The notes under the pieces were generated by a model that worked only from the letters and a program-made list of their open reading frames with translations, was not told the origin of the DNA and did not search any database. Below, piece by piece: positions 10,532-40,275 of a stretch of DNA of 64,000 nt. The DNA is taken from NCBI RefSeq assembly GCF_000304475.1, contig NC_018941.1:1364001-1428000 (forward strand), written 5' to 3'. The number at the start of each line of letters is the position of its first letter. The first letter of the stretch is position 1. Made by a program: the position numbers and the translations under genes. Source of the stretch: Kazachstania africana CBS 2517 (lineage: Eukaryota > Ascomycota > Saccharomycetes > Saccharomycetales > Saccharomycetaceae).

Positions 10532-10676
10532 TGCTGGAAATGGCAACATACTGACATTTCAATGTTTTGATAGTTAGAATGACAAATTTAGAATGTTATA
10601 GAAGATATGAACAATAATTATGGTGTGATAAACACGACAATGTATTGACACGAACCATATATGGCGTGATAAACAC
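10532..10676 (+). repeat. Ty1/copia LTR, family alpha, truncated copy 1
   Basis: Starts TGCTGGAAATGGCAACATAC and matches the first ~145 bases of the full alpha LTR at 15716. It stops at ...GATAAACAC, where a family-beta LTR begins at once. No alpha remainder is seen beyond, so it is truncated rather than merely interrupted. Confidence 0.8.
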
Positions 10677-11114
10677 TGTTGGAATGAGAGTTTGATGGGT
10701 CTATAATACTATAGCACATATTTGTAGACGAGAATATTATGGATTGGTAAATAACTACGAAGAATGTAACCACAACGGTTTACCATAACAAGAAGATTCG
10801 CTGCTTGTATAGATACGAAGAAGCTATACGACGTCGTACAGGTAACAAGTGAAAAATTTTCATCATGTCGTCGACGAGAATGTTGCGATTTATGAGGTAC
10901 AAATAGACGTCATCTAGTATCGAGAGAACATCTTTTCCTCTCTTATTGAAGATACTTTTTATATAGAATATGATCAGGATGAATATTGGTTTTTAATATA
11001 TAGTTTAATTCTGATTTCATACTTTATTTTGTTTGGTATACTATAACTCTTATTTATTACTGCAATGTCATCGATTAGCAACACCCCAAGAGAGGAAAAG
11101 ACTTCTATCGGTCA
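10677..11114 (+). repeat. Ty1/copia LTR, family beta, full copy 1
   Basis: 438 bases, starting TGTTGGAATGAG and ending ...TCGGTCA. As in Ty1, the gag ATG (11065) lies inside the LTR: the last 50 bases encode MSSISNTPREEKTSIGH, matching the start of the Gag-Pol ORF at 15645, where the LTR end is followed by the primer-binding site. Here the base after the LTR is not a primer-binding site, so this is a solo or rearranged LTR. A TATA-like TTTTTATATAGAA lies near 10958. Confidence 0.8.
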
Positions 11115-11439
11115 TTGATTTCTTCCATTCTCTAGTTACTGAGAATAATCATCTACTTCGGGGCTCATACCCAATGAGTCACGTGATTAAAAATTTCTGC
11201 AGTTCTATGAAAAATTTGCAATGTTAAAATAACACCATTTTCTCGTGTAAACATAAGACAATTGATGTGTCATTAGCTCTCAAGAAAATACTACGCAAGG
11301 AGAGCCTTACATAGTAAGGGGAATATCGAAGTAGCCCTCAAAATTTCCACTAAGACCATCGAAAATATTCCAGCACATGACAACTATTCAAATGGTTTTG
11401 CAAGACCTTTTCAATGGTTGGATATCGTCCTGCTGTGCA
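11115..11439. other. Unassigned segment between Ty fragments
   Basis: 325 bases. I see no LTR, tRNA or coding similarity. It may be host DNA caught between elements or an older, decayed insertion. Confidence 0.4.
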
Positions 11440-11830
11440 TGATTCTCATTTATCATTTCAATGAGAGGCAGTGACATGTTACTGGTCTCATGTTCTTTTA
11501 GAATTTCAGTGATACCCGTAATTTCCTGCACGGATATATTTTCTACCTCGTCGCTGGAACCCTATGAAGAGATAGATTACCCATCTAAACTTTCATCAAT
11601 GGATCGCAAATCCTCGGTGCTACCACTCGATGAGGGCACACCTTCCTATGCTGGGGTTTTCTGGTCAACTTTATGATTGTCAGCATCGTTAGAATTATTT
11701 GTTTCAGGAACAAGCTTATTGTAATTTCTGGGTACGGAATCTAATACAGTAACAATCAGGTTGTTTTACTGGCGCAGCGGGGTACTTGACAATGGCATAA
11801 TTCGCAGTGTCGATCTCCCTGTACTTTGAA
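11440..11830 (-). pseudogene. Decayed Ty1/copia pol fragment (post-integrase spacer), family beta
   Basis: Diverged copy of the region at about 12640-13015 of the larger element: shared landmarks include TTTCAGTGATACCCGTAATT (compare 12687) and ACTGGCGCAGCGGGGTACTT (compare 12954). The frame is broken. It ends against a beta LTR at 11833. Confidence 0.7.
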
Positions 11831-11832
11831 GG

Positions 11833-12085
11833 TATTGGAACGAGAGTTTGATGGGTCTATAACACTGTAGCACATATCGTTAGACGAGAATATTATGGAT
11901 TGATAATAGGATCGAAGGATGTGAACACAACGGTTTACCATAACAAGAAGATTCACTGCTTGTACACACACACAAAACATGTACGACGTCGTCCAAGTAA
12001 TAAGTCAAAATTTTTTCATCATGTCTTCAACGAGAGTGTCATGAATTATAAGGTTAAACTAGACAACGTCTAGTATCGAAAAGAC
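11833..12085 (+). repeat. Ty1/copia LTR, family beta, partial copy 2
   Basis: Matches the first ~250 bases of the LTR at 10677 (shared GAGAGTTTGATGGGTCTATAA, then GTTTACCATAACAAGAAGAT) and stops near CTAGTATCGA. It lies in the opposite orientation to the Gag-Pol ORF that abuts it, so it is not that element's own 3' LTR in normal arrangement. Confidence 0.75.
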
Positions 12086-12087
12086 AA

Positions 12088-15000
12088 CTAAAGGTCAGGA
12101 GATACATACTTCGGGTATCTAAACGATTTATTACGTGGATACAGGGCAAATCTGACCAATATTTGTCCAATCTCCTTTCCATAGGCGTTAAGGTACAACT
12201 TTCTGTCATCTTCATTTTCATTATCTGAAATAGCTTCCCAAAAATTTAGTGAAGGTTTATTTGTGGGAGGTCTTTTGTATCTAGCCGCCTTAATAGCATG
12301 TACTAAATGTACTCCACGTCTCGTAGTGGGACGATGCTCTTCATCATGGCTAAATTCAATTTTTCTCTTAATCCTCCTCTTATTAGAATGAATAGCCAAA
12401 GAAGATAATGGTTTATCTTCAGCTAATATTTCAATCTTATTCGTACCACCTAAATTGGATTTAACAGGAATATCAACTAAATCATCGATAATATTGTCCG
12501 GAACAATTTGAGTAGTTTTTTTGTTATCTGAAAAACCTTCACCGGAATCTGTTGGTTCACCTACTTCGTGAATCTCCGGTTCTATATCGCTTGGCTCGTG
12601 TCCGTTTGGAAAATCTTCCACCAGATCATTTGCTTCACCCTCACCTAAATGATCTGAGTAAGGTTTATTCGGTGCTTGGTTGTCCAGAATTTCAGCGATA
12701 TCCGTAATTTCCTGTACAGATATATTTTCCACACCGTCGCTGGAATCCTGTGATGGGGTTGAGTCCTCATCTGTCTGGTCATCCCCGGAAGCAAAACCCT
12801 CGGTGATACCACCCAATGAGGATACGTCTTCCCGTCCGAGACTTGTATGGTCAAGCTCATGATCGTCAGCATCTGCAAATGTATGTGATTCAGAAACAAA
12901 CTCATTGTAATCACTGAGTAGGGAGTCAAACACGGTAGCGACCTGATTATTTACTGGCGCAGCAGAGTACTTGACGATGGCATAATTTGTAGTGTCGATC
13001 ACCTTGTGCTTCGAAGGCACGTAGATAAGGTATCCGAAAGATTCCTTAGATGGACACAGAGCAAATCCGAGGTCACCCCTCGGCTTAAGTTTGCTATCTG
13101 TGTCATGGTTGTGAACAACAACTTCTTGACCAAATGGAAGAATAGTTTTTATATCGAGCCCTTCCAAACCAGCCTTGGCTCGTGGTGAATCATTGATACT
13201 TGAATTTATCATCGTATTTCTGATGAGAGTAGCAAATTCAACCGCGTGATACCACATATTATTGGGTAAATTTGTGGCCTTGAGTAGTGTACGGCAGTCG
13301 TTCAAGAACAACAAGTTTGTACGTTCGGCCACACCATTTGAAGCGGAGTCAGCGGCGGTATTGTAAATGGATTTAATACCTTTATCAATGAAAAAGTCAT
13401 CTAATAATTCATTTCTGTATTCAGATCCACGGTCCATTTGAAAGGCTTTCACCTTAGTTGAGAACTGTGTTCTGATAAAATTCACCAGCTTGCGGAACAC
13501 TAACAATATGTGTTCCGCACTTTTAGATCGTAGCGGATATACCCACCGAAAACGGGTATTCTCATCTACGAAACTAATAAAATAAGTGGGAGTAGTGGCT
13601 GATACATCGGACATTGGACCAAACAAATCAGTATGAATGTACTGAAATGGCTCAAAAAATTGTTGATATTTCAACCTTGATCCAACGGTGTGTTTGTGGC
13701 GACGCATCTTACCAGCGAGACATTCCTTGCATTGGAATTTATCAATGCCTCTCCAATCAATCTTATCGGCAGTGATATTCTGAATCATGCCTTTTTCAAC
13801 CGACTTGCGAATGTCCTTGACATTTACGTGCCCAAAAAAACGATGTAAAAATTCTACAGGAATTTTTTCACTTACATTGTGAACTCTGCTTGTAGAAATT
13901 TTGCCTTTACTCTTCTTCTGCGTGCTGCCAAGAGGAAGCAGCAGGTGATTTATATGAATGCACATATACGGGCCAATCATTTCTAATGGAGCTAAGACCT
14001 CATCTGATTTGTTGATGAGACGGCTTCTCCTGGTGTCAATGATCACACCCGCTTTTATTAAAGCATTCCAGCTGACCAGGTTGTAAGTTGCGGCTTTAGA
14101 GGCAAGCACTCGAATAGAATGTGATTGCTTGTTAAGCCACTTGAAGGCCATAGTACCGGAAGCTTCAACAGGTAGTTCCTCGTTCCCAGCGCCGAATAAT
14201 TTGTCAATCGGATTCATGTTTTTACAAAATATATATTTTGGATCCTTTACGACTGACACTTCTTCCCCGGAATCGAGAATTACATAATCATCTAGAGATG
14301 GCTCTAGCTCTGAATTATGCCGGAGACACTGTGCATCATCAGGAGTCTTCGTTTGAATATGGTGAACCCTCTTTTTCGATGTGGTAGAGGTCTTACTAGT
14401 TGACTTACCGGCCGTTTTACTAGAAGCCTTACTCGATGTTTCAGAGAATTCTTTCAAAGCTTTGATGTCAGGACACCTTTTGGTAGTATGTCCTGCCTTG
14501 TCACAATACCCACAGTTCACGCTTTGTGATGAAGTGGTTGGAGTAGGTTTGTTGATGACCTCTGTAGCTAGGTAATTAATCCTAACTAAAACATCATCCA
14601 GTGAAACTTTCCCCATGCGAGAATGATAGAAATCATTTACATTTTTGAACTGATTTTTCAAGTTGTCAACGATTCGTTTGGTGATAATCCACTCTGGGAT
14701 AATAATATCATATTCAGCAGCCTTTTTCACCAAGCTTTGAAGTTTTCTTTTGAAAACAAAAACGTCCATTTTTCCATCATAAGAGATATTCATCAATTCA
14801 TCATGAATATCTTGTCCCGATGCACTCTTCTCTGCCTTACTGAGGGCACTCATAATCGCGTCGGATAGTTCCAAGTGGTGGACATATAACAAGTCTTTGA
14901 ACCACTTGGCATAATGTTTAGCAGGTACAAAATAATTGAAAGTTTGTTCTATGTACGCTCTTTCATGGTCCAATACCTCAGTGGTATAACCACTTTTGTC

Positions 15001-15645
15001 TGGGATAGCATGACCTAAATTTCGTTCTTTCAGGAAGCGACAAAATTTTTTCAACCATGTGTCAAACTCATCAGTGGTTGTGACCATGGTAAGATTTACC
15101 GCATTTGCACTGTAACTGCTATGATTTGCAAATGAGGTTTCTGTAGCGGTTCCCGCATTTGACGGCGGGATGGAGGTGGAATGAAAACTTGTTTCAGACC
15201 CTGCATCAGGTGCCAACTCGGTATCTGATGTTTGATTTGAAGGACTCTCTTTAGCTCCCACTGGCACTTGTTTGCCTGGAATCTGGAAACCATATTGGTA
15301 TTGTGCCCACCTTGGATCAACTTGCAGAAATTGATTTCCAAAAGCAAACGGGGCGCCATATGATGGCATATCCGGATGAGGATTACAATACATCTGATAT
15401 CCTGGAATAGGCATCATAAGTGGTTGCATGAATGGCATATTTGAGTCCATCTGAAAATATGGATACTCCATTTGGGGCATTTTCGAAATATGCTCCTTCT
15501 TTCCCTTAGAAATGTCCTCGATATTAGCCTCGAAGGGAGCTTGTTTAGAGCTCTTCGTTTCATTAAAAATGAAAGAATCATCCGCGGCGCTACCATGACC
15601 GATAGAAGTCTTTTCCTCTCTTGGAGTGTTGCTAATCGATGACAT
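12088..15645 (-). CDS. Ty1/copia Gag-Pol, truncated before reverse transcriptase
   Basis: 1185 codons in one frame. Gag covers about 1-440, with a zinc knuckle at C378-C391 (CGYCDKAGHTTKRC). Protease follows (LDSGEE, D458). Integrase has its HHCC finger at H601, H606, C639, C642 and catalytic D673, D738 and E774. A variable acidic region and a basic KRRIKRK patch come next, then a few residues resembling the start of reverse transcriptase before a stop at 12088, where a beta LTR abuts. Reverse transcriptase and RNase H are missing, so the element cannot be autonomous. The ATG at 15645 lies inside the LTR as in Ty1. No +1 frameshift is needed between Gag and protease, unlike the neighbouring family-alpha element. 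Confidence 0.9.
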   Translation of the reverse strand: MSSISNTPREEKTSIGHGSAADDSFIFNETKSSKQAPFEANIEDISKGKKEHISKMPQMEYPYFQMDSNMPFMQPLMMPIPGYQMYCNPHPDMPSYGAPFAFGNQFLQVDPRWAQYQYGFQIPGKQVPVGAKESPSNQTSDTELAPDAGSETSFHSTSIPPSNAGTATETSFANHSSYSANAVNLTMVTTTDEFDTWLKKFCRFLKERNLGHAIPDKSGYTTEVLDHERAYIEQTFNYFVPAKHYAKWFKDLLYVHHLELSDAIMSALSKAEKSASGQDIHDELMNISYDGKMDVFVFKRKLQSLVKKAAEYDIIIPEWIITKRIVDNLKNQFKNVNDFYHSRMGKVSLDDVLVRINYLATEVINKPTPTTSSQSVNCGYCDKAGHTTKRCPDIKALKEFSETSSKASSKTAGKSTSKTSTTSKKRVHHIQTKTPDDAQCLRHNSELEPSLDDYVILDSGEEVSVVKDPKYIFCKNMNPIDKLFGAGNEELPVEASGTMAFKWLNKQSHSIRVLASKAATYNLVSWNALIKAGVIIDTRRSRLINKSDEVLAPLEMIGPYMCIHINHLLLPLGSTQKKSKGKISTSRVHNVSEKIPVEFLHRFFGHVNVKDIRKSVEKGMIQNITADKIDWRGIDKFQCKECLAGKMRRHKHTVGSRLKYQQFFEPFQYIHTDLFGPMSDVSATTPTYFISFVDENTRFRWVYPLRSKSAEHILLVFRKLVNFIRTQFSTKVKAFQMDRGSEYRNELLDDFFIDKGIKSIYNTAADSASNGVAERTNLLFLNDCRTLLKATNLPNNMWYHAVEFATLIRNTMINSSINDSPRAKAGLEGLDIKTILPFGQEVVVHNHDTDSKLKPRGDLGFALCPSKESFGYLIYVPSKHKVIDTTNYAIVKYSAAPVNNQVATVFDSLLSDYNEFVSESHTFADADDHELDHTSLGREDVSSLGGITEGFASGDDQTDEDSTPSQDSSDGVENISVQEITDIAEILDNQAPNKPYSDHLGEGEANDLVEDFPNGHEPSDIEPEIHEVGEPTDSGEGFSDNKKTTQIVPDNIIDDLVDIPVKSNLGGTNKIEILAEDKPLSSLAIHSNKRRIKRKIEFSHDEEHRPTTRRGVHLVHAIKAARYKRPPTNKPSLNFWEAISDNENEDDRKLYLNAYGKEIGQILVRFALYPRNKSFRYPKYVSPDL
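15582..15595 (-). promoter_or_regulatory. Primer-binding site (initiator tRNA-Met) of the beta element
   Basis: TGGTAGCGCCGCGG directly follows the LTR end TCGGTCA on the minus strand. The first 12 bases are complementary to the 3' end of yeast initiator tRNA-Met, the Ty1 primer. Confidence 0.8.
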
Positions 15646-15663
15646 TGTATTAATAAATAAGAT
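15596..15663 (-). repeat. Ty1/copia LTR, family beta, 3' remnant (copy 3)
   Basis: The last ~68 bases of a beta LTR, immediately before the primer-binding site, including the gag ATG and the CTTATTTATTA leader shared with 11048-11058. The rest is replaced by alpha LTR sequence. Confidence 0.75.
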
Positions 15664-15668
15664 CTAAG

Positions 15669-15706
15669 TGCTGGAAATGACATTGTATTCACATTTCAAT
15701 ATTTTG
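15669..15706 (+). repeat. 38-base scrap of alpha LTR flanked by CTAAG
   Basis: TGCTGGAAATGACATTGTAT resembles the alpha LTR start but ends after ~38 bases. CTAAG occurs on both sides (15664-15668 and 15707-15711), like a target-site duplication. Confidence 0.5.
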
Positions 15707-15715
15707 CTAAGATCC

Positions 15716-16078
15716 TGCTGGAAATGGCAATATACTGCCATTTCAATGTTTTGATAGTTAGAATGACAAATTTAGAATGTTGGAGAAGATATGAACAATA
15801 ATTATGGTGTGATAAACACGATCATGTGTTGTCACAAACCATATATGGCGTGATAAACACGAATACTTATTATCATGCAATAATTATCGTACGATAATTA
15901 TGACAACGTATTGACTCATAAATCCAGAACATGATAATTGGCATAAATCAAAATGTGTTGGAAAAGGTATAAATACTCAGGTGAACACTGAAGTTTATCA
16001 AAGTTTGTATCACTTTATATTATTTTATATTAACGAAAATAATATAAAGGGATCATCCTCTGATCTTCCTTCACGTCA
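15716..16078 (+). repeat. Ty1/copia LTR, family alpha, 5' LTR
   Basis: 363 bases from TGCTGGAAATGG to ...CACGTCA, followed at once by TGGTAGCGCT, a primer-binding site for initiator tRNA-Met (16079-16088). A TATA-like GGTATAAATAC lies near 15966. This LTR belongs to the gag gene that follows. Confidence 0.88.
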
Positions 16079-16088
16079 TGGTAGCGCT
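16079..16088 (+). promoter_or_regulatory. Primer-binding site of the alpha element
   Basis: TGGTAGCGCT directly abuts the LTR end. It is complementary to the 3' end of initiator tRNA-Met apart from the last base, as in Ty1. Confidence 0.75.
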
Positions 16089-16124
16089 TTGCAAGACCCG
16101 GTCAAACCAGTTGACTCAGGGAGT

Positions 16125-17234
16125 ATGCCAACGACTCCGGTCGAGAGCATCAGGCACTCAGTCGCAAACAATTCTGGAGACATCAGACAGCCAAGTAATC
16201 CTCCATACACCACTGGAGACCCATTCGTCAGGACTACTCTTCACGGCTCTCCTATGTATGTCAATCCCACAATGTTTGCTAATCAGTTTCAACAATATGA
16301 TATGAATTTTCAACCTTACCCCCAAGGATTTGTCTATCCTCCTCACCATATAAACGTTCAACATGGTGTAGCCTCATCGTCATCCGATCATACTCTACAC
16401 GACATCATAAGCAACAACGGCATCGATCGCCCATCACATGCTAACTCGAACCACGGCACTATGTTATATAAACTTGCCGACGCCTCTGAATTTCAGGACT
16501 GGATCAAAGTCTTTTCTGCCTTTATTAAGGAACACGGCATGGAACATGTCCTCCCAGACGCACAAGGTGACCCTACTACGGAACCCACAGAGTCAGAAGA
16601 GAGATTTCTCACTCAAGTGTTTCAATACTTTGTTCCAACTACGACTTACCCACAATGGTTCAAAACGGAGTTACGTAATAATCTTACCTCAACGTACGAT
16701 GTCATTGAAATTGCACTATCCAAATATGATGTATATATGCGCGACTATGAGATTGCGAAGAAACTCAACAATATCCATTACGACGGTAAAGAAAATCCAA
16801 AATTATTCAAGAAACGTGTAGCGAAATTACGTAAAATAGGTGAAAAAATCGGCATCACTACCACTGATCGTGCTATATGTGACCAATTGATCACTACTTT
16901 ACCCACTGCTTACAAGCCAATTGTAGACGATTACCGTATCCATTATCGATCTACAACTTTAAACGATATTCTCAATAGTATTCAACAATTCAAAATATCG
17001 CGACCGGATACATCCTCTTACTCTCCCAAAAACACTAGACAACAGATTTCTACTAGTGCTCCTACTAAAAATGTTCCTTCCAAGACACAAACAACCGGCA
17101 ATACAACTAAGGCCAACAACCCTACTAACAGTAACACTAAAGCACCTAGGCGTCGCAATGTGAACTACATCACTCATGATGAGCCCATTGAACAACTTGA
17201 AGTGCTTAGGCAACGAGGATCAAATCCATCCTGA
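16125..17234 (+). CDS. Ty1/copia Gag, family alpha
   Basis: 369 residues from the first in-frame ATG (16125); the frame is open back to 15981, inside the LTR, but that codon is GTG, so an original LTR start may have been lost. The capsid core (about residues 115-290 in this numbering) resembles the Gag half of the beta element, including FQDWIKVFSAFIKEHG and QYFVPTTTYPQWFK. The C-terminal part is basic and rich in Thr, Asn and Lys. Gag ends at 17234, and the +1 site at 17205 leads into protease. Confidence 0.85.
   Translation: MPTTPVESIRHSVANNSGDIRQPSNPPYTTGDPFVRTTLHGSPMYVNPTMFANQFQQYDMNFQPYPQGFVYPPHHINVQHGVASSSSDHTLHDIISNNGIDRPSHANSNHGTMLYKLADASEFQDWIKVFSAFIKEHGMEHVLPDAQGDPTTEPTESEERFLTQVFQYFVPTTTYPQWFKTELRNNLTSTYDVIEIALSKYDVYMRDYEIAKKLNNIHYDGKENPKLFKKRVAKLRKIGEKIGITTTDRAICDQLITTLPTAYKPIVDDYRIHYRSTTLNDILNSIQQFKISRPDTSSYSPKNTRQQISTSAPTKNVPSKTQTTGNTTKANNPTNSNTKAPRRRNVNYITHDEPIEQLEVLRQRGSNPS
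17205..17211 (+). promoter_or_regulatory. Ty1-type +1 ribosomal frameshift heptamer CTTAGGC
   Basis: CTT AGG C is in the Gag frame and is the exact slip sequence used by Ty1 and Ty2: peptidyl-tRNA-Leu slips at CTT while the rare AGG codon is slow. Slipping to GGC continues as GNEDQIHPEELLIIDSG, into the protease. Seen directly; the mechanism is known from Ty1. Confidence 0.9.
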
Positions 17235-17694
17235 AGAGTTATTGATAATTGACTCTGGCGCGGAAATTTCTGTCGTTCAATCCAGTTCTATGTTAAATAA
17301 CACATTCAACCCAACCCGTGACATTTTATATGATGCGGGCTCCAAGGAATTAACCGTTGAATCTGGTGGCTACTTATGTCTTTCTTTTGATACTGCTTCA
17401 TATCGTATCAAAGCTCTCGCTTCACCTGAGATCTCTTGTAACATTCTATCGCTTCACGCACTAGAACGAGCAAGCATCTCAGTGGATCTGATTAATCGTG
17501 TACTCATTGACAAGAAGGGTAACATCCTAACCAAACTAATAGACTACGGACGTTATGTCTGCATTCCGCTATCAGTCATTTGCACGACTCAGGTGGTTAA
17601 TAATGTTCGAACAAAATTCGCTATGAATTTCTTTCACAAGCTCTTCGGTCACATCAATATACGCGATATCAAAAAACTATCAATAAGGATCTGA
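17212..17694 (+). pseudogene. Ty1/copia Pol fragment (protease and start of integrase), family alpha
   Basis: Reached only by the +1 shift. It contains protease motif IIDSGAEISVV and the beginning of the integrase zinc finger (FHKLFGHINIRDIKKL), then ends at a TGA formed where an inverted LTR starts at 17692. More than 80% of Pol is missing. Confidence 0.85.
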
Positions 17695-18095
17695 CGTGAA
17701 GGAAGATCAGAGGATGATCCCTTTATATTATTTTCGTTAATGTAAAATAATATAAAGTGATACAAACTTTGATAAACTTCAGTGTTCACCTGAGTATTTA
17801 TACCTTTTCCAATACATTTTGAATTATGCCAATTATCATGTTATAGATTTATGAGTCAATACATTATCGTGTTTATCACACCATAAATATTTCGTGTCAA
17901 CAAATGATCGTGTTTATCACACCATAAATATTTCATGTCAACAAACAATCGTGTTTATCACACCATAATTATTTCGTGTCAACAAACAATCGTGTTTATC
18001 ACACCATAATTATTGTTCATATCTTCTATAACATTCTAAATTAGTCATGCTAACTATCAAAACATTGAAATGTCGGTATATTGCCATTTCCAGCA
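17692..18095 (-). repeat. Ty1/copia LTR, family alpha, inverted copy with 41-bp repeats
   Basis: 404 bases, the reverse complement of the 15716 LTR, from TGACGTGAAG to ...CATTTCCAGCA. It is longer than the 5' copy because of a tandem repeat at 17866-18014. Its orientation is opposite to that expected for a 3' LTR. It ends 87 bases upstream of the tRNA-Ile gene. Confidence 0.88.
17866..18014. repeat. 41-bp tandem repeat within the alpha LTR
   Basis: ATCGTGTTTATCACACCATA begins at 17866, 17907, 17948 and 17989: an exact 41-base period, with the last unit incomplete. Units differ at a few bases. The other alpha LTR has fewer copies. Confidence 0.85.
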
Positions 18096-37361: not shown

Positions 37362-37435
37362 TGGTCTCTAGCGGGATCGAACCGCTGATCCCCGCGTTAT
37401 TAGCACGGTGCCTTAACCAACTGGGCCAAGAGACC
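37362..37435 (-). tRNA. tRNA-Ile (AAT), second copy
   Basis: 74 nt on the minus strand, identical over its full length to the gene at 18182-18255, with anticodon AAT. The T6 terminator is at 37357-37352. The Ty3-type element begins 15 bases upstream of its 5' end (first target-duplication base at 37446), the position where Ty3 integrates. Confidence 0.96.
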
Positions 37436-37445
37436 GGGGGTTTCT

Positions 37446-37450
37446 GGTTT
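37446..37450. other. Target-site duplication GGTTT (left)
   Basis: GGTTT here and at 39475-39479 bracket the chimeric Ty3-type element exactly at its LTR ends. Ty3 makes 5-bp duplications. The site is 11-15 bases upstream of the mature tRNA-Ile 5' end. Confidence 0.8.
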
Positions 37451-37850
37451 TATTGTAAGTTCAAGACGGTAACAAGACAGATAACACAGGGGGAATATGA
37501 CACGGCTGGTGTATATTCTAATTCAGGGACAGAGAGCGTGGAAATCTATCTGATCGTATAACTATAGCTAAAAGCGTATCAAATGGCTTGTCTCTTTTTT
37601 ATATATAATTATAAAGTAAGATAAAAGATTAAGAACAAATATGACGAAGAATTCCTTTTTATAGTGTGGAATTCTTCAAGATGACAAAAGTCGCGTCCGC
37701 AAAAAGTTTTCACTAATATTCAATCAAAATCAATAATGTGAAATATTTAATTTAATAGATTGGACAGCGGGTGTCTAGTTTTTGATTCTGGGAAAACAGT
37801 CACACGAATTTAGAGCTTAATATTGTAGTTTCCCAGTCTATGTTACAACA
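37451..37850 (-). repeat. Ty3-type LTR, complete 3' copy
   Basis: 400 bases, minus orientation: starts TGTTGTAACA at 37850 and ends ...CTTACAATA at 37451. The termini form an imperfect inverted repeat (TGTTGTAA against TATTGTAA). Bases 37569-37850 match 39190-39474 with about six substitutions and 3 bases of indel (~2%). Bases 37451-37568 (distal R/U5) have no counterpart in the other copy. Confidence 0.85.
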
Positions 37851-38131
37851 TCTTCCTCCCTCTCTGGGTTAGATCCTGTTTCCAGGAGTTGCCGGAAATT
37901 GGCTAATATAGAAATTCGGATCCAGTTCGGGACATTTTTAAATTCTTCTTCGGAATATTCGACAGTCAGTATCGGATCGACATCTTGCATTTGACATATG
38001 TAACTTTTGTTTGATGTGTCTCTGCCGACAACGGCGGTGACTTCCTTGGCTCTTGATATTCTTTCAACCGATGTTCTTGGGGGTTGCTTTGGGTAGGCAT
38101 CTGGCCTTCTTAGATGATTACCAATAGCGCT
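37838..38131 (-). pseudogene. Ty3-type POL3 C-terminal remnant (integrase end)
   Basis: 97 codons open from just after a TGA (38134-38132) to a TAG at 37840-37838. It reads ...SYICQMQDVDPILTVEYSEE... and ...RISILANFRQLLETGSNPER..., the C-terminal end of Ty3 integrase. The frame runs across the LTR start in the same register as in Ty3 (GA-TGT-TGT-A read as GAT GTT GTA), ending a few codons inside the LTR. This match of sequence and register makes the family assignment firm. Confidence 0.85.
37851..37864 (-). promoter_or_regulatory. Ty3-type polypurine tract
   Basis: GAGAGGGAGGAAGA lies immediately before the LTR on the minus strand. Ty3 has a closely similar purine tract at this place, which primes plus-strand DNA synthesis. 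Confidence 0.8.
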
Positions 38132-38192
38132 TCAACCTATCAGCCCGTGGCAGCACTGATGGTGCAGTGTTGCGGGCCCCTGCCACTCCAGA

Positions 38193-39182
38193 CTACTCCT
38201 CGGACGAACACACGGTATTGCTGTAGGTTTCACAAAAGCCCATATCCGCAAAGTCCTCAACCGGGAAGTACCCCGTCTCTGGCTTAGTCCAGGCAACCCA
38301 GCAGCCGTTATCGTGTACAGTTTGCGGTGTATGTTCGTACAGACATGTTTCTGCCACCGCTGATATCATGCCCGCCCTTGAATTCACCGTTAACTGTAGC
38401 AAGAGGGCATCCCTGTCACCATTTTGCATCCAGTTGACCACGTCGTCCCACTTAGCAACTGCACCGTAACTTTGGGTTTCAACAAATATCTCATGTCCTG
38501 AAGTACCTTGGTAACCGTTAAATCCATTACGTTTTACTAGTGTTGATACATCCGCCATGGCTACTGAGGACAGCGTAAGGTTGGTACGCACTATGTGCGC
38601 GAAAGTCATGTTCCCCACCTCCTGATGTATCGACATCTTGATGGGCATGAACGGTGTATCCGCTCCCGAGCTAATAGCTTGCGGCGTCATAACTACGCTA
38701 ACGTTGTGGCCTAAATCATGCGTATTCAACCCCATTTCTTCTGCCCATGCCGCGTCAACATCCACTGACATGACGCCGGTGCTGTGCGATAAGGCATTCA
38801 GATATGCTGCTGCTACAGGCATAGCGCCAGTGCCGTCTGTCGACCTCTTCCACCATGAGCCCGTGTCATGTTTAGTAGCCAAGGTAAAGCCTACTGCCGC
38901 CACTGATGTTAGTATCGACCTGGTACATTCAACCCTGTCAACTTTCTTGCCGTCGGCGGTAGTACAGTCCTCTATTATGTCTAATATTTGATACGCTCCA
39001 TTTGTGGCCAACGCCCAAGTGACACGAGCCCTTCCGCCGGCTCTGTCTCCCAATAGAGTAATCCCGGCCCACGTGGCAAGCTTTATGAACCTCTTAAATC
39101 CTAACGCTACCGCCGTAATGGCCACCAGTACCATTAATGCTCTAAGGTTACTCCGAATGAGGCAGCCGCGTGTGTTTTCCAT
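38193..39182 (-). CDS. Killer-preprotoxin-like protein (M-satellite derived), intact ORF
   Basis: 329 residues from an ATG six bases after a GAAAAA leader. A hydrophobic segment at about 12-43 could be a signal or membrane anchor. Residues 52-110 are a hydrophobic pair around a Cys-containing loop (C73, C86), reminiscent of the alpha region of K1-type toxins. Kex2-type KR sites lie at 112-113 and 217-218, three N-glycosylation sequons at 160, 191 and 201 between them, and a C-terminal domain holds C280, C294, C317 and C325. This alpha-gamma-beta-like layout matches K1-like killer precursors. Base composition (~50% GC) is far above the neighbouring host genes. A secreted pore-forming toxin is an inference; no activity is shown. 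No frameshift or stop breaks the frame, and an LTR TATA box lies ~100 bases upstream. Confidence 0.65.
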   Translation of the reverse strand: MENTRGCLIRSNLRALMVLVAITAVALGFKRFIKLATWAGITLLGDRAGGRARVTWALATNGAYQILDIIEDCTTADGKKVDRVECTRSILTSVAAVGFTLATKHDTGSWWKRSTDGTGAMPVAAAYLNALSHSTGVMSVDVDAAWAEEMGLNTHDLGHNVSVVMTPQAISSGADTPFMPIKMSIHQEVGNMTFAHIVRTNLTLSSVAMADVSTLVKRNGFNGYQGTSGHEIFVETQSYGAVAKWDDVVNWMQNGDRDALLLQLTVNSRAGMISAVAETCLYEHTPQTVHDNGCWVAWTKPETGYFPVEDFADMGFCETYSNTVCSSEE

Positions 39183-39189
39183 TTTTTCT

Positions 39190-39474
39190 TAAAAGCGTAT
39201 CAAATGGCTTGTCTCTTTTTTTATATATAAAATTATAAAGTAAGATAAAAGATTAAGAACAAATATGACGAAGAATTCCTTTTTATAGTGTGGAATTCTT
39301 CAAGATGACAAAAGTCGCGTCCGCGAAAAGTTTTCACTAATATTCAACCAAATTCAATAATGTGAAATATTTAATTTAATAGATTGGACAGCGGGTGTCT
39401 AGTTTTTGATTTTGGGAAAACAGTCACACGAATTTAGAGCTTAATGTTGTAGTTTCCCAGTCTATGTTACAACA
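39190..39474 (-). repeat. Ty3-type LTR, truncated 5' copy
   Basis: 285 bases from TGTTGTAACA (39474) to ...GATACGCTTTTA (39190), then straight into the killer cDNA. It contains U3 and presumably the start of R but lacks the last ~118 bases and the primer-binding site. Confidence 0.85.
39279..39287 (-). promoter_or_regulatory. LTR TATA box upstream of the killer-like ORF
   Basis: TATAAAAAG on the minus strand, about 97-105 bases before the ATG at 39182. In a normal Ty3-type element this would drive the genomic transcript; here it points into the killer-like gene. Confidence 0.6.
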
Positions 39475-39479
39475 GGTTT
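39475..39479. other. Target-site duplication GGTTT (right)
   Basis: Second copy of the 5-bp duplication; the pre-insertion tRNA-Ile flank resumes here. Confidence 0.8.
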
Positions 39480-39599: not shown

Positions 39600-40275
39600 C
39601 CCTCTGTCACATAGTCCTGCGCAGCGATGCAGCGTTACACGTTGTAAGTAACTTCTGTACTGCAATCACGCTCGCTACGTCTGCAAGCGTCCGAGGTCAT
39701 ATTAGCCATATCATCGTGGCCCAGTATCCTAGCGTGCCGTTAGGAGAGACGGCACCCTGAGGACTGATGCTCTAAACGTGTTGGGGTGTATTTACGCCAA
39801 CGGGTATCCAGGAATACTAGCGTCGGTGTGGACGGCATGGGAGCACTGGCATTCTTACCTTACATTCAAGAGACATTTAATACAGCCTATGTCAGGGTAG
39901 CAAGTTACTGTAACTCTAGGTATAGCCATAAAATTATTACTTCTGTCCACAGCGGACTCAACTTTGAAGATGACGAAGTTATCGGTGCGTTACAAGACGT
40001 CGTACTTACCAGGCCATCGTTCCCAGGCCTGGTAGGCAGCAGAACTATCTCAGCCGCCCACAAGACGGAGACCCAGGCTAATGGCACTACCTGGTCAAGC
40101 GCTCGAACTCCTATAACTATGCTTATATGGCAGATGACTTGGCTTGAAGCATTTGTGACGTCGTTATAAATACAACAGACGTATGGCAGGATTTTAGTCA
40201 ACAGGTTTGCGCTGCGTACCATGTCGAGAACGCAAACTTCAAATATTCTACAATCTTCAAACCCTTGTAAGACCG
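39600..40275 (+). pseudogene. Totivirus coat-protein-like (Gag) pseudogene, C-terminal half
   Basis: No single long frame, but pieces in all three plus frames recall, in order, the second half of the major coat protein of L-A-type yeast totiviruses: a Trp-containing piece near 39700, ALNVLG (39769) continuing after a frame change as VYLRQRVSRNTSVG (39787), then near 40180-40270 VINTTDVWQDFSQQVCAAYH followed by NANFKYS...KP. GC content is raised as in the killer-like ORF. The match was made by eye from knowledge of the family, so an alignment is needed. Several frameshifts and stops show it is not functional. Before the Ty3 insertion it would have started roughly 0.15 kb upstream of tRNA-Ile. 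Confidence 0.5.

Follow-up and report, generated by a model that had tools for sequence, protein, structure and literature searches.

A Ty3-type retrotransposon copy in the genome of Kazachstania africana carries an intact killer-preprotoxin-like gene in place of gag-pol, and we consider it probable that this element is a chimera formed when a killer-type RNA was captured by reverse transcription. The window, which is the whole stretch of DNA that was analysed, comprises 64,000 nt of strain CBS 2517 (GCF_000304475.1, NC_018941.1, forward strand, 1,364,001-1,428,000), and the element spans positions 37451-39474 on the minus strand. The confidence expressed here covers reverse-transcription capture from a killer-type RNA; the alternative of a nuclear mRNA overlaps with it and differs in the donor alone. 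The features are as follows, with the basis of each in parentheses.

37362..37435, minus strand: tRNA-Ile (AAT) (ARAGORN, Rfam)
37446..37450, no strand: GGTTT target-site duplication, left copy (sequence)
37451..37850, minus strand: complete 3′ LTR, 400 bp (repeat comparison)
37838..38113, minus strand: Ty3-type integrase C-terminus, stop codon within the LTR (phmmer to Ty3 Gag-Pol)
37851..37864, minus strand: polypurine tract GAGAGGGAGGAAGA, abutting the 3′ LTR (sequence)
38114..38192, minus strand: zone in which the 3′ untranslated end of the toxin meets pol (GC-rich, no A-rich tract)
38193..39182, minus strand: killer-preprotoxin-like ORF, intact, 329 codons (ORF list, genome comparison)
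39183..39188, minus strand: GAAAAA directly upstream of the toxin ATG (sequence)
39189..39189, minus strand: single extra A between LTR and GAAAAA (sequence)
39190..39474, minus strand: 5′ LTR copy, cut at position 282 (sequence alignment)
39475..39479, no strand: GGTTT target-site duplication, right copy (sequence)
39682..40258, plus strand: decayed relative of family C, a second secreted-toxin-like family, adjoining the element (tblastn)

Structure of the element and its target site

Ty3 makes a 5-bp target duplication on insertion. The window element has such a duplication at a polymerase III start, the site at which Ty3 integrates (PMC11381356): GGTTT stands at both outer ends, and the 5′ end of the tRNA-Ile gene is 16 bp away. 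Among 18 other full-length LTR copies examined, the tRNA 5′ end lies at a distance of 15-18 bp in 13, and the 5-bp duplication is exact in 11, agrees at four of five bases in 4 and at fewer in 3. Given these counts, chance is an unfair account of the element. The adjoining relative of family C was matched by three of the six family C queries, with a best E value of 2e-25.

LTR sequence of a family that matches the genome at 46 or more places is present at both ends of the element, the 5′ copy being represented by positions 1-282 alone. The 3′ LTR is complete (TGTTGTAA.../...TTACAATA), and the 5′ LTR keeps the promoter side and lacks the last 118 bp and R-U5. Over 285 columns, the 5′ copy differs from LTR positions 1-282 by six substitutions and one 3-nt gap. 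In the LTR tree, the partner of the 3′ LTR of the window element is a 5′ arm from a different capture (support 0.89) and not its own 5′ LTR. Because the two LTRs are approximately 2% apart and are not clearly each other's closest relatives in the tree, their identity is no proof of a simultaneous origin. In four other capture elements the arms diverge by 9-28%, so that each must have been copied from a separate template RNA or been exchanged afterwards. The use of the LTR tree as a clock was dropped, since the arms of several elements stem from different LTR lineages.

The polypurine tract is followed on its inner side by pol sequence of Ty3 type. The frame 37838-38131 comprises 97 codons, the final ones inside the LTR, and its codons 7-96 correspond to residues 1445-1534 of Ty3 Gag-Pol (PDB 7q5b; phmmer E 4.4e-34). 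A search of the window element for gag and a full pol found the integrase C-terminus alone, as opposed to what an autonomous Ty3 carries. At the joint between pol and the toxin 3′ end, no homology is visible.

The initial annotation, which was based on the letters of the window, had already described the GGTTT duplication, LTR copies about 98% alike over about 282 bases, the polypurine tract, some 97 codons of Ty3-type pol running into the LTR and an intact 329-codon ORF replacing gag-pol, and each of these is borne out by the coordinates and alignments given here. The 118-bp loss in the 5′ LTR was not mentioned there. The same annotation had proposed a genome-wide search for the intact parental Ty3 family. 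Two Ty3-type Pfam searches recovered one pol relic, on contig 6, and no intact Ty3 parent. A second PF17921 match, on contig 7, was discarded because its frame resembles a host gene. When the pol fragment of the window element was itself searched for kin, the sole match was itself.

The toxin-like gene and its joint with the LTR

The toxin ORF has a GC content of 50.7% and a GC3 of 54%, compared with a GC3 of 30-34% in six host genes, and this foreign composition counts towards capture. The ORF shares 36% identity across 232 aa (E 2e-45) with a subtelomeric gene, C6:3832, which we take to be a KKT (K1-like killer toxin) gene of K. africana; KR (dibasic) sites at 112 and 217 of the window toxin align with this relative. 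Through C6:3832, and judging by sequence, the window toxin would be K1-like. The toxin had no significant match by sequence in Pfam, NCBIfam or PDB, and a comparison with 5.8 billion proteins, in which a word filter narrows the reach, returned its own gene as the sole match. Structure prediction without an alignment gave a mean pLDDT of 33.6. The gene lies approximately 82 kb from the contig end.

The left joint of the toxin gene is compact: LTR position 282 is followed by one A, by GAAAAA and by the ATG. GAAAAA forms the 5′ terminus of most L and M viral RNAs in yeasts (PMC5618225), and the start expected of an M-satellite RNA is thus found one base from the LTR piece. This joint had been overlooked in the initial annotation. 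The motif occurs in none of the 19 aligned full-length Ty3-like LTR copies, and we therefore consider that GAAAAA came with the toxin at the window. Furthermore, it is not found within 25 nt upstream of the ATG in any of 52 other ORFs (GAAAA, 2 of 52), these controls being the mechanical ORFs of at least 150 codons from the window and nine loci, with Ty ORFs counted in. From density alone, GAAAAA would be expected by chance with a frequency of 2.3% in 20 placements. The second character of M satellites, an A-rich tract after the ORF, is absent from the window element (best 60 nt, 25% A). The toxin ORF sits directly behind the retrotransposon promoter, from which the captured gene would be expressed.

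Similar structures elsewhere in the genome

U3 pieces of the same LTR family flank secreted-toxin-like ORFs at six further loci. Behind the LTR, an exact GAAAAA stands 0-12 nt before an ATG in five of the seven Ty3-type captures, and this ATG opens an intact toxin frame in four of the five and a broken frame in the fifth. The six other elements, which are of an inverted type, all have an A-rich 60-nt stretch (at least 60% A) between the ORF and the 3′ arm, a composition that 0.65% of 2,000 random 200-nt stretches reach. That the window element has no such tract speaks against capture, as do the divergence between its two LTRs and between the arms of four other elements, the failure to find an intact parent or a satellite with this toxin, and the lack of visible homology at the joint of pol and toxin. 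The inverted U3 arms are not separate solo insertions, because the 3′ arms end within U3 at the A-rich tract and are without U5. At C3:1150472, the LTR runs through position 351 and is followed by an A-rich run and then by GAAAAA, an order that looks, from its sequence, as if the template had been a retrotransposon RNA with a tail at its 3′ end. CTTTTA precedes three of the seven Ty3-type joints, at two places in the LTR.

Comparable LTR-toxin joints are present in the Ty1-like family of the genome. Four of nine distinct copies of the Ty1-like LTR have GAAAAA at the place where the class 2 toxins begin, so we rejected the motif as a viral diagnostic in this class: it is present in uninterrupted LTR copies, and behind a Ty1-like LTR the same letters before a toxin gene are no proof of viral origin. 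In total, one genome contains seven Ty3-type and several Ty1-type putative captures, which involve three toxin-like families with no detected kinship to one another. The chromosomal toxin-like loci number 3 for the family of the window toxin, 15 for family C (grouped from 18 matches) and 8 matches for family B. Protein searches, whose reach is narrowed by a word filter, returned three proteins for family C and two for family B, all from K. africana.

Proposed mechanism and alternative explanations

We observe how the element is built, its joint, its target site and the presence of similar structures elsewhere in the genome; the particle involved and the order of the template switches are inferred. 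In a Ty3-type particle, minus-strand synthesis would at first have taken its normal course, from U5 across R and U3 to the polypurine tract and some 90 codons at the end of pol. The enzyme would then have jumped onto a killer RNA, landing immediately 3′ of the toxin stop codon, and copied it up to the 5′-terminal GAAAAA, where run-off would have permitted a second jump, to U3 of a retrotransposon RNA, and the copying of U3. Priming of the plus strand at the polypurine tract adjoining that U3 would yield a linear DNA with correct ends, in the order U3-toxin-pol end-PPT-U3-R-U5, which the Ty3-type integrase would insert 16 bp from the tRNA gene with a 5-bp duplication. It had been suggested at the outset that a Ty3-type particle was where a killer RNA underwent reverse transcription, and that the copy entered the chromosome as a single unit bounded by LTRs. 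The features tested agree with that account, and the LTR-GAAAAA-ATG joint and the six like loci lend it further support.

A dsRNA satellite is the likely donor, in preference to the mRNA of a toxin gene in the nucleus. If the satellite carried a close relative of the ORF, its RNA is expected to start with 5′-GAAAAAAUG. A search for a dsRNA satellite with the window toxin returned the window gene only among proteins and four pattern matches among viral contigs, none of them confirmed. The L-A coat and RdRP_4 (totivirus) families gave no match, and because the controls were equally silent, no conclusion is drawn from them. Capture by reverse transcriptase of an ordinary nuclear mRNA, transcribed from a chromosomal toxin gene, is in our opinion unlikely. 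The genome has many chromosomal toxin-like genes, and LTR elements are documented to capture cellular mRNAs (PMC5408686); however, no source gene is apparent, as identity to the closest relatives found on the chromosomes is only 33-36%, and a nuclear transcript would need to start at the viral motif, since the captured RNA begins with GAAAAA.

A normal Ty3 could also have inserted first and had its interior swapped later for the toxin gene at the DNA level, by end joining or recombination. The same target duplication and near-identical LTRs would be expected in that case, but the left joint is a viral-type 5′ terminus behind a promoter, the 5′ LTR is without R-U5, and like joints recur at other loci with different toxins, which makes such a replacement improbable. 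The reverse direction, in which toxin genes were first put together in the nucleus, downstream of LTR promoters, and their transcripts gave rise to killer satellites, has been debated in the literature (PMC2805616), and the GAAAAA in four of nine distinct Ty1-like LTR copies means that LTR-driven transcripts could start like viral RNA; the Ty3-like LTR that flanks the toxin gene here is without the motif in all 19 aligned copies, and we regard this direction as highly improbable here. An assembly error that joined a toxin gene and a pol end to a pair of LTR fragments, for which repeats at both ends might give occasion, is hardly credible, as the outer 5-bp duplications match, the tRNA spacing is that of most other LTR copies and six comparable loci exist.

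Capture of a killer-type RNA by reverse transcription can be placed in a wider reading, to which we give slightly less than even credence: LTR retrotransposons would have brought killer-virus genes into this yeast repeatedly, with a mimicry-guided capture in the Ty1-like family. There, the start of R looks like two parts of a killer RNA, its 5′-GAAAAA and its A-rich tract, and such an RNA might enter the element's own first-strand transfer and so come to lie behind the promoter, between U3 and R.

The nuclear entry of genes from RNA viruses that have no reverse transcriptase is usually argued on distribution alone. At this locus the carrier is still attached: a single piece of DNA unites the ends of the retrotransposon and of pol with a target duplication and a 5′ terminus of viral type. 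Similar events recur in the genome, where they involve different toxins and LTRs of two families. The mechanism is therefore testable at base level in laboratory yeast. The captures point to a direction from RNA to DNA, and a captured toxin could gain a promoter at once. This anatomy suggests how RNA-virus genes can turn into yeast genes.

Comparison with known systems

Retrotransposon-mediated capture was proposed for the KKT genes of K. africana from the GAAAAA motif, which lies near the start of six KKT genes and pseudogenes of this species (PMC7888664, 2021). The capture route has thus been in print since 2021, without the present anatomy. Like those genes, the window gene has GAAAAA close to its start and would encode a K1-like toxin. 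That report places the only two KKT genes outside subtelomeres in Naumovozyma and mentions two KKT genes near tRNAs there, whereas the window gene is LTR-bounded and about 82 kb from the contig end; the terms Ty3 and LTR are absent from the main text of the report (PMC7888664). Integrated totivirus genes of fungi are likewise RNA-virus genes in yeast nuclear genomes, and the terms LTR and tRNA are absent from the main text of the work describing them (PMC2805616).

With Ty3 of Saccharomyces cerevisiae, the window element shares the Pol C-terminus, the polypurine tract and integration at a polymerase III start; unlike Ty3, it has no gag, remaining pol or 5′ R-U5 and cannot move autonomously. 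According to the model of LTR-mediated retroposition (Tan et al., 2016, cited in PMC5408686), the RNA of an LTR element and another RNA are joined by template switching and integrated between LTR ends, as we propose here, but the RNA captured here is a toxin message that opens with a 5′ motif of viral type. Recombination between an LTR retrotransposon and a non-retroviral RNA virus, with integration of the cDNA, is also shared with the LCMV-IAP case in mouse (Geuking et al., 2009, cited in PMC3205384). That case was seen in infected cells and mice, and the review that describes it knows of no endogenous LCMV element, whereas the K. africana products have become fixed in the genome of a yeast.

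Anatomy of the window element

The genome searched comprises 11.13 Mb in 12 contigs, and the window is positions 1364001-1428000 of contig 2. On the minus strand, reading from 39474 to 37451, the Ty3-type element carries on both flanks the GGTTT duplication reported in the initial annotation. Its 3′ LTR is full length (400 bp). Its 5′ LTR consists of positions 1-282, lacks the last 118 bp, and differs from the 3′ copy by 6 substitutions and one 3-nt gap. In sense order, the interior contains one extra A, GAAAAA, a 329-codon ORF whose ATG directly follows GAAAAA, a GC-rich segment no longer than 79 nt, a pol remnant of ~90 codons (the C-terminal part of a Ty3-type integrase) and, adjoining the 3′ LTR, a polypurine tract. 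The Ty3-type assignment of the pol fragment was borne out by a match to Ty3 Gag-Pol (PDB 7q5b; E 4.4e-34). The sole Ty3-type pol relic found in the genome is at C6:294380-296776 (locus L038, 1881-4277), followed by an LTR remnant that matches positions 268-400 of the element's LTR family at 78%.

The insertion lies 16 bp from the 5′ end of a tRNA-Ile gene. Among 18 other full-length LTR copies, the 5-bp duplication is exact in 11, agrees at four of five bases in 4 and at fewer in 3; the distance to the tRNA 5′ end is 15-18 bp in 13 copies, and the remaining five are 9, 27 or 725 bp from a tRNA or have a locus in which no tRNA was found. The chimera thus integrated like most members of its LTR family.

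Six further putative Ty3-type captures

A genome search with the element LTR, followed by reading of the truncated copies, identified six more loci at which U3 of this LTR family flanks a secreted-toxin-like ORF on both sides.

Putative Ty3-type captures, with the reading frame from the ATG at the GAAAAA place
C1:1653027-1654718 (locus L026, 1501-3192); intact, 298 codons
C3:1150472-1152075 (locus L023, 249-1852); intact, 291 codons
C5:508656-510294 (locus L029, 1498-3136); broken, 135 codons
C3:1048840-1050322 (locus L042, 2341-3823); intact, 278 codons
C8:144958-146479 (locus L045, 2459-3980; right end placed by eye); broken, 197 codons
C3:126645-128159 (locus L050, about 1146-2660; left end approximate); broken, 30 codons
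Window element; intact, 329 codons

The 3′ arm is inverted in all six, and therefore both outer ends are U3 starts. Between the ORF and the 3′ arm, each of the six has an A-rich 60-nt stretch (60-78% A), whereas 2000 random 200-nt stretches drawn from the window had one in 0.65% of cases. Four of the seven elements (window, C1, C3:1150472 and C3:1048840) are 16-18 bp away from the 5′ end of a tRNA gene. The outer duplication is exact in C8 (AAATT, with the right end placed by eye) and AAGTT/AAATT in C1; no clear outer duplication was present at C5 and the three C3 loci.

The GAAAAA joint

PMC5618225 describes GAAAAA as the sequence with which most yeast viral L and M genomes are generally accepted to begin, and adds that a central poly(A) is also present in these genomes. 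Exact GAAAAA occurs 0-12 nt upstream of an ATG in five of the seven putative Ty3-type captures (window, C1 and the three C3 loci), and C5 and C8 have GAAAAC and CAAAAAA at this place; the GAAAAA of C3:1150472, which lies in an A/G-rich context, is weaker evidence. The motif was found in none of 19 aligned full-length LTR copies of the family, which has at least 46 matches in the genome. Nor does it occur within 25 nt upstream of the ATG in any of 52 other ORFs of at least 150 codons (mechanical ORFs from the window and nine loci, Ty ORFs among them), two of which have GAAAA. Density alone gives an expectation of 2.3% for 20 placements.

In the window, GAAAAA and a single additional base fill the space between the LTR and the ATG. 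The promoter side, including a TATA-like stretch, is retained in the 5′ LTR piece, and the toxin RNA starts where this piece ends. We infer that R starts at LTR position 283; if so, the joint is the point where normal first-strand transfer resumes copying. The LTR joint is at position 229 in C1, ~282-283 in the window and C5, and ~297 in C8; it lies at ~233-251, followed by short AT-rich stretches, in C3:126645 and C3:1048840. In C3:1150472, it is at 351 with an A-rich run behind it, an arrangement that would fit copying from a retrotransposon RNA at its tailed 3′ end. CTTTTA precedes three of the seven 5′ joints (window, C1 and C5), at two different LTR positions.

Relationships of the LTR arms

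Over the first 217 positions, the two window LTRs agree at 97.7%. They group with the 5′ arm of C1 in a single clade (support 0.96), within which the window 3′ LTR pairs with the C1 5′ arm (98.2%, support 0.89) rather than with its own 5′ LTR. The arms are 98.6% alike in C5, 91% in C1, 89% in C3:1150472, and 73% in both C3:1048840 and C8; for C3:126645, an initial comparison gave 92% and a later search, over the part that it aligned, 98%. Unlike arms would be explained if one event used two different RNA templates or if sequence was exchanged later. That the arms of several elements differ argues against dating by LTR identity.

Toxin families

The window toxin has two relatives here. One, encoded 3.8 kb from the end of contig 6, shares 36% identity with it over 232 residues (E 2e-45); the other, a broken gene on contig 11, shares 30-33%. 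This family has three loci in the genome. K1-like killer toxin (KKT) genes of K. africana are described in PMC7888664, and by position and length we take the two relatives to be among them. By the account of that paper, the only non-subtelomeric KKT genes are two from Naumovozyma; the window gene, being ~82 kb from its contig end, falls outside the subtelomeric description given there. Its GC content is 50.7% and its GC3 54%; the GC3 of six host genes is 30-34%.

Family B (Pfam DUF6736) has eight matches, four of which were read in sequence, and family C, which has no Pfam match, comprises 15 loci by our grouping of 18 matches. Judged by eye, both families may be killer toxins: their N-termini are hydrophobic, and they have dibasic sites, leaders and A-rich tails. 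K. africana genes resembling the killer toxin Ksino, itself similar to Klus, are reported in PMC12875307. Two neighboring pairs of family C (C2:625450 with C2:626287, and C3:376732 with C3:378334) are apparently local duplicates and have no GAAAAA just upstream of the start. A decayed family C relative (window 39682-40258) directly adjoins the element, so genes of two different toxin-like families have left remains at this tRNA-Ile locus.

Toxin-like genes joined to a Ty1-like LTR

Other toxin-like genes stand behind a Ty1-like LTR, one copy of which extends from window position 10677 to about 11115. Between tRNA-Arg and a second tRNA-Ile, window 10532-18095 holds gag and gag-pol ORFs of the Ty1/copia type, accompanied by LTR pieces that are nested and inverted. 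At five loci (L064, L048, L046, L065 and L071), toxin-like ORFs are joined to this LTR at the probable U3/R boundary. L064 (C3:1213468-1214200), whose toxin-like sequence is broken, and L048 (near C7:621781) read U3, GAAAAA with toxin-like sequence, an A-rich run, and R-U5; because all parts run in one direction, the toxin occupies a single site within the LTR. In L064, L048 and L046, the A-rich run is immediately followed by the rest of the LTR, and in L048, where the long frame does not use the first ATG after GAAAAA, sixteen A lead straight into it. In L065 and L071, the joint coincides with this LTR place or is no more than about a dozen bases from it.

At this place, the two KKT-like genes carry GAACCA and GACCCA instead of GAAAAA. 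Among nine distinct copies of this LTR that are uninterrupted, four have GAAAAA at the toxin-start place, where it mimics the 5′ end of a yeast viral RNA (GAAAAA-bearing copies include those at loci L054, L063, L051 and L052), and thus the motif is no proof of viral origin in this class. This bears on PMC7888664, in which GAAAAA is taken to mark a dsRNA origin of K. africana KKT genes.

Mechanism and comparison with known systems

The window element is most simply explained if a Ty3-type reverse transcriptase switched template twice, which would yield a chimeric element. For the Ty1-like class, the sequences suggest that R is similar to killer RNAs in two respects, their 5′ end and their A-rich tract, and this likeness could guide two switches.

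The retrotransposon route as an idea is already published. Among the titles and passages surveyed from open-licence PMC papers, none describes LTR-bounded killer genes, which is not proof of absence; what appears to be new is the anatomy, together with its recurrence and the Ty1-like variant. Cellular mRNAs are known to be retroposed by LTR elements through template switching (PMC5408686), and in mouse cells an LTR element has been shown to capture a non-retroviral RNA virus (PMC3205384).
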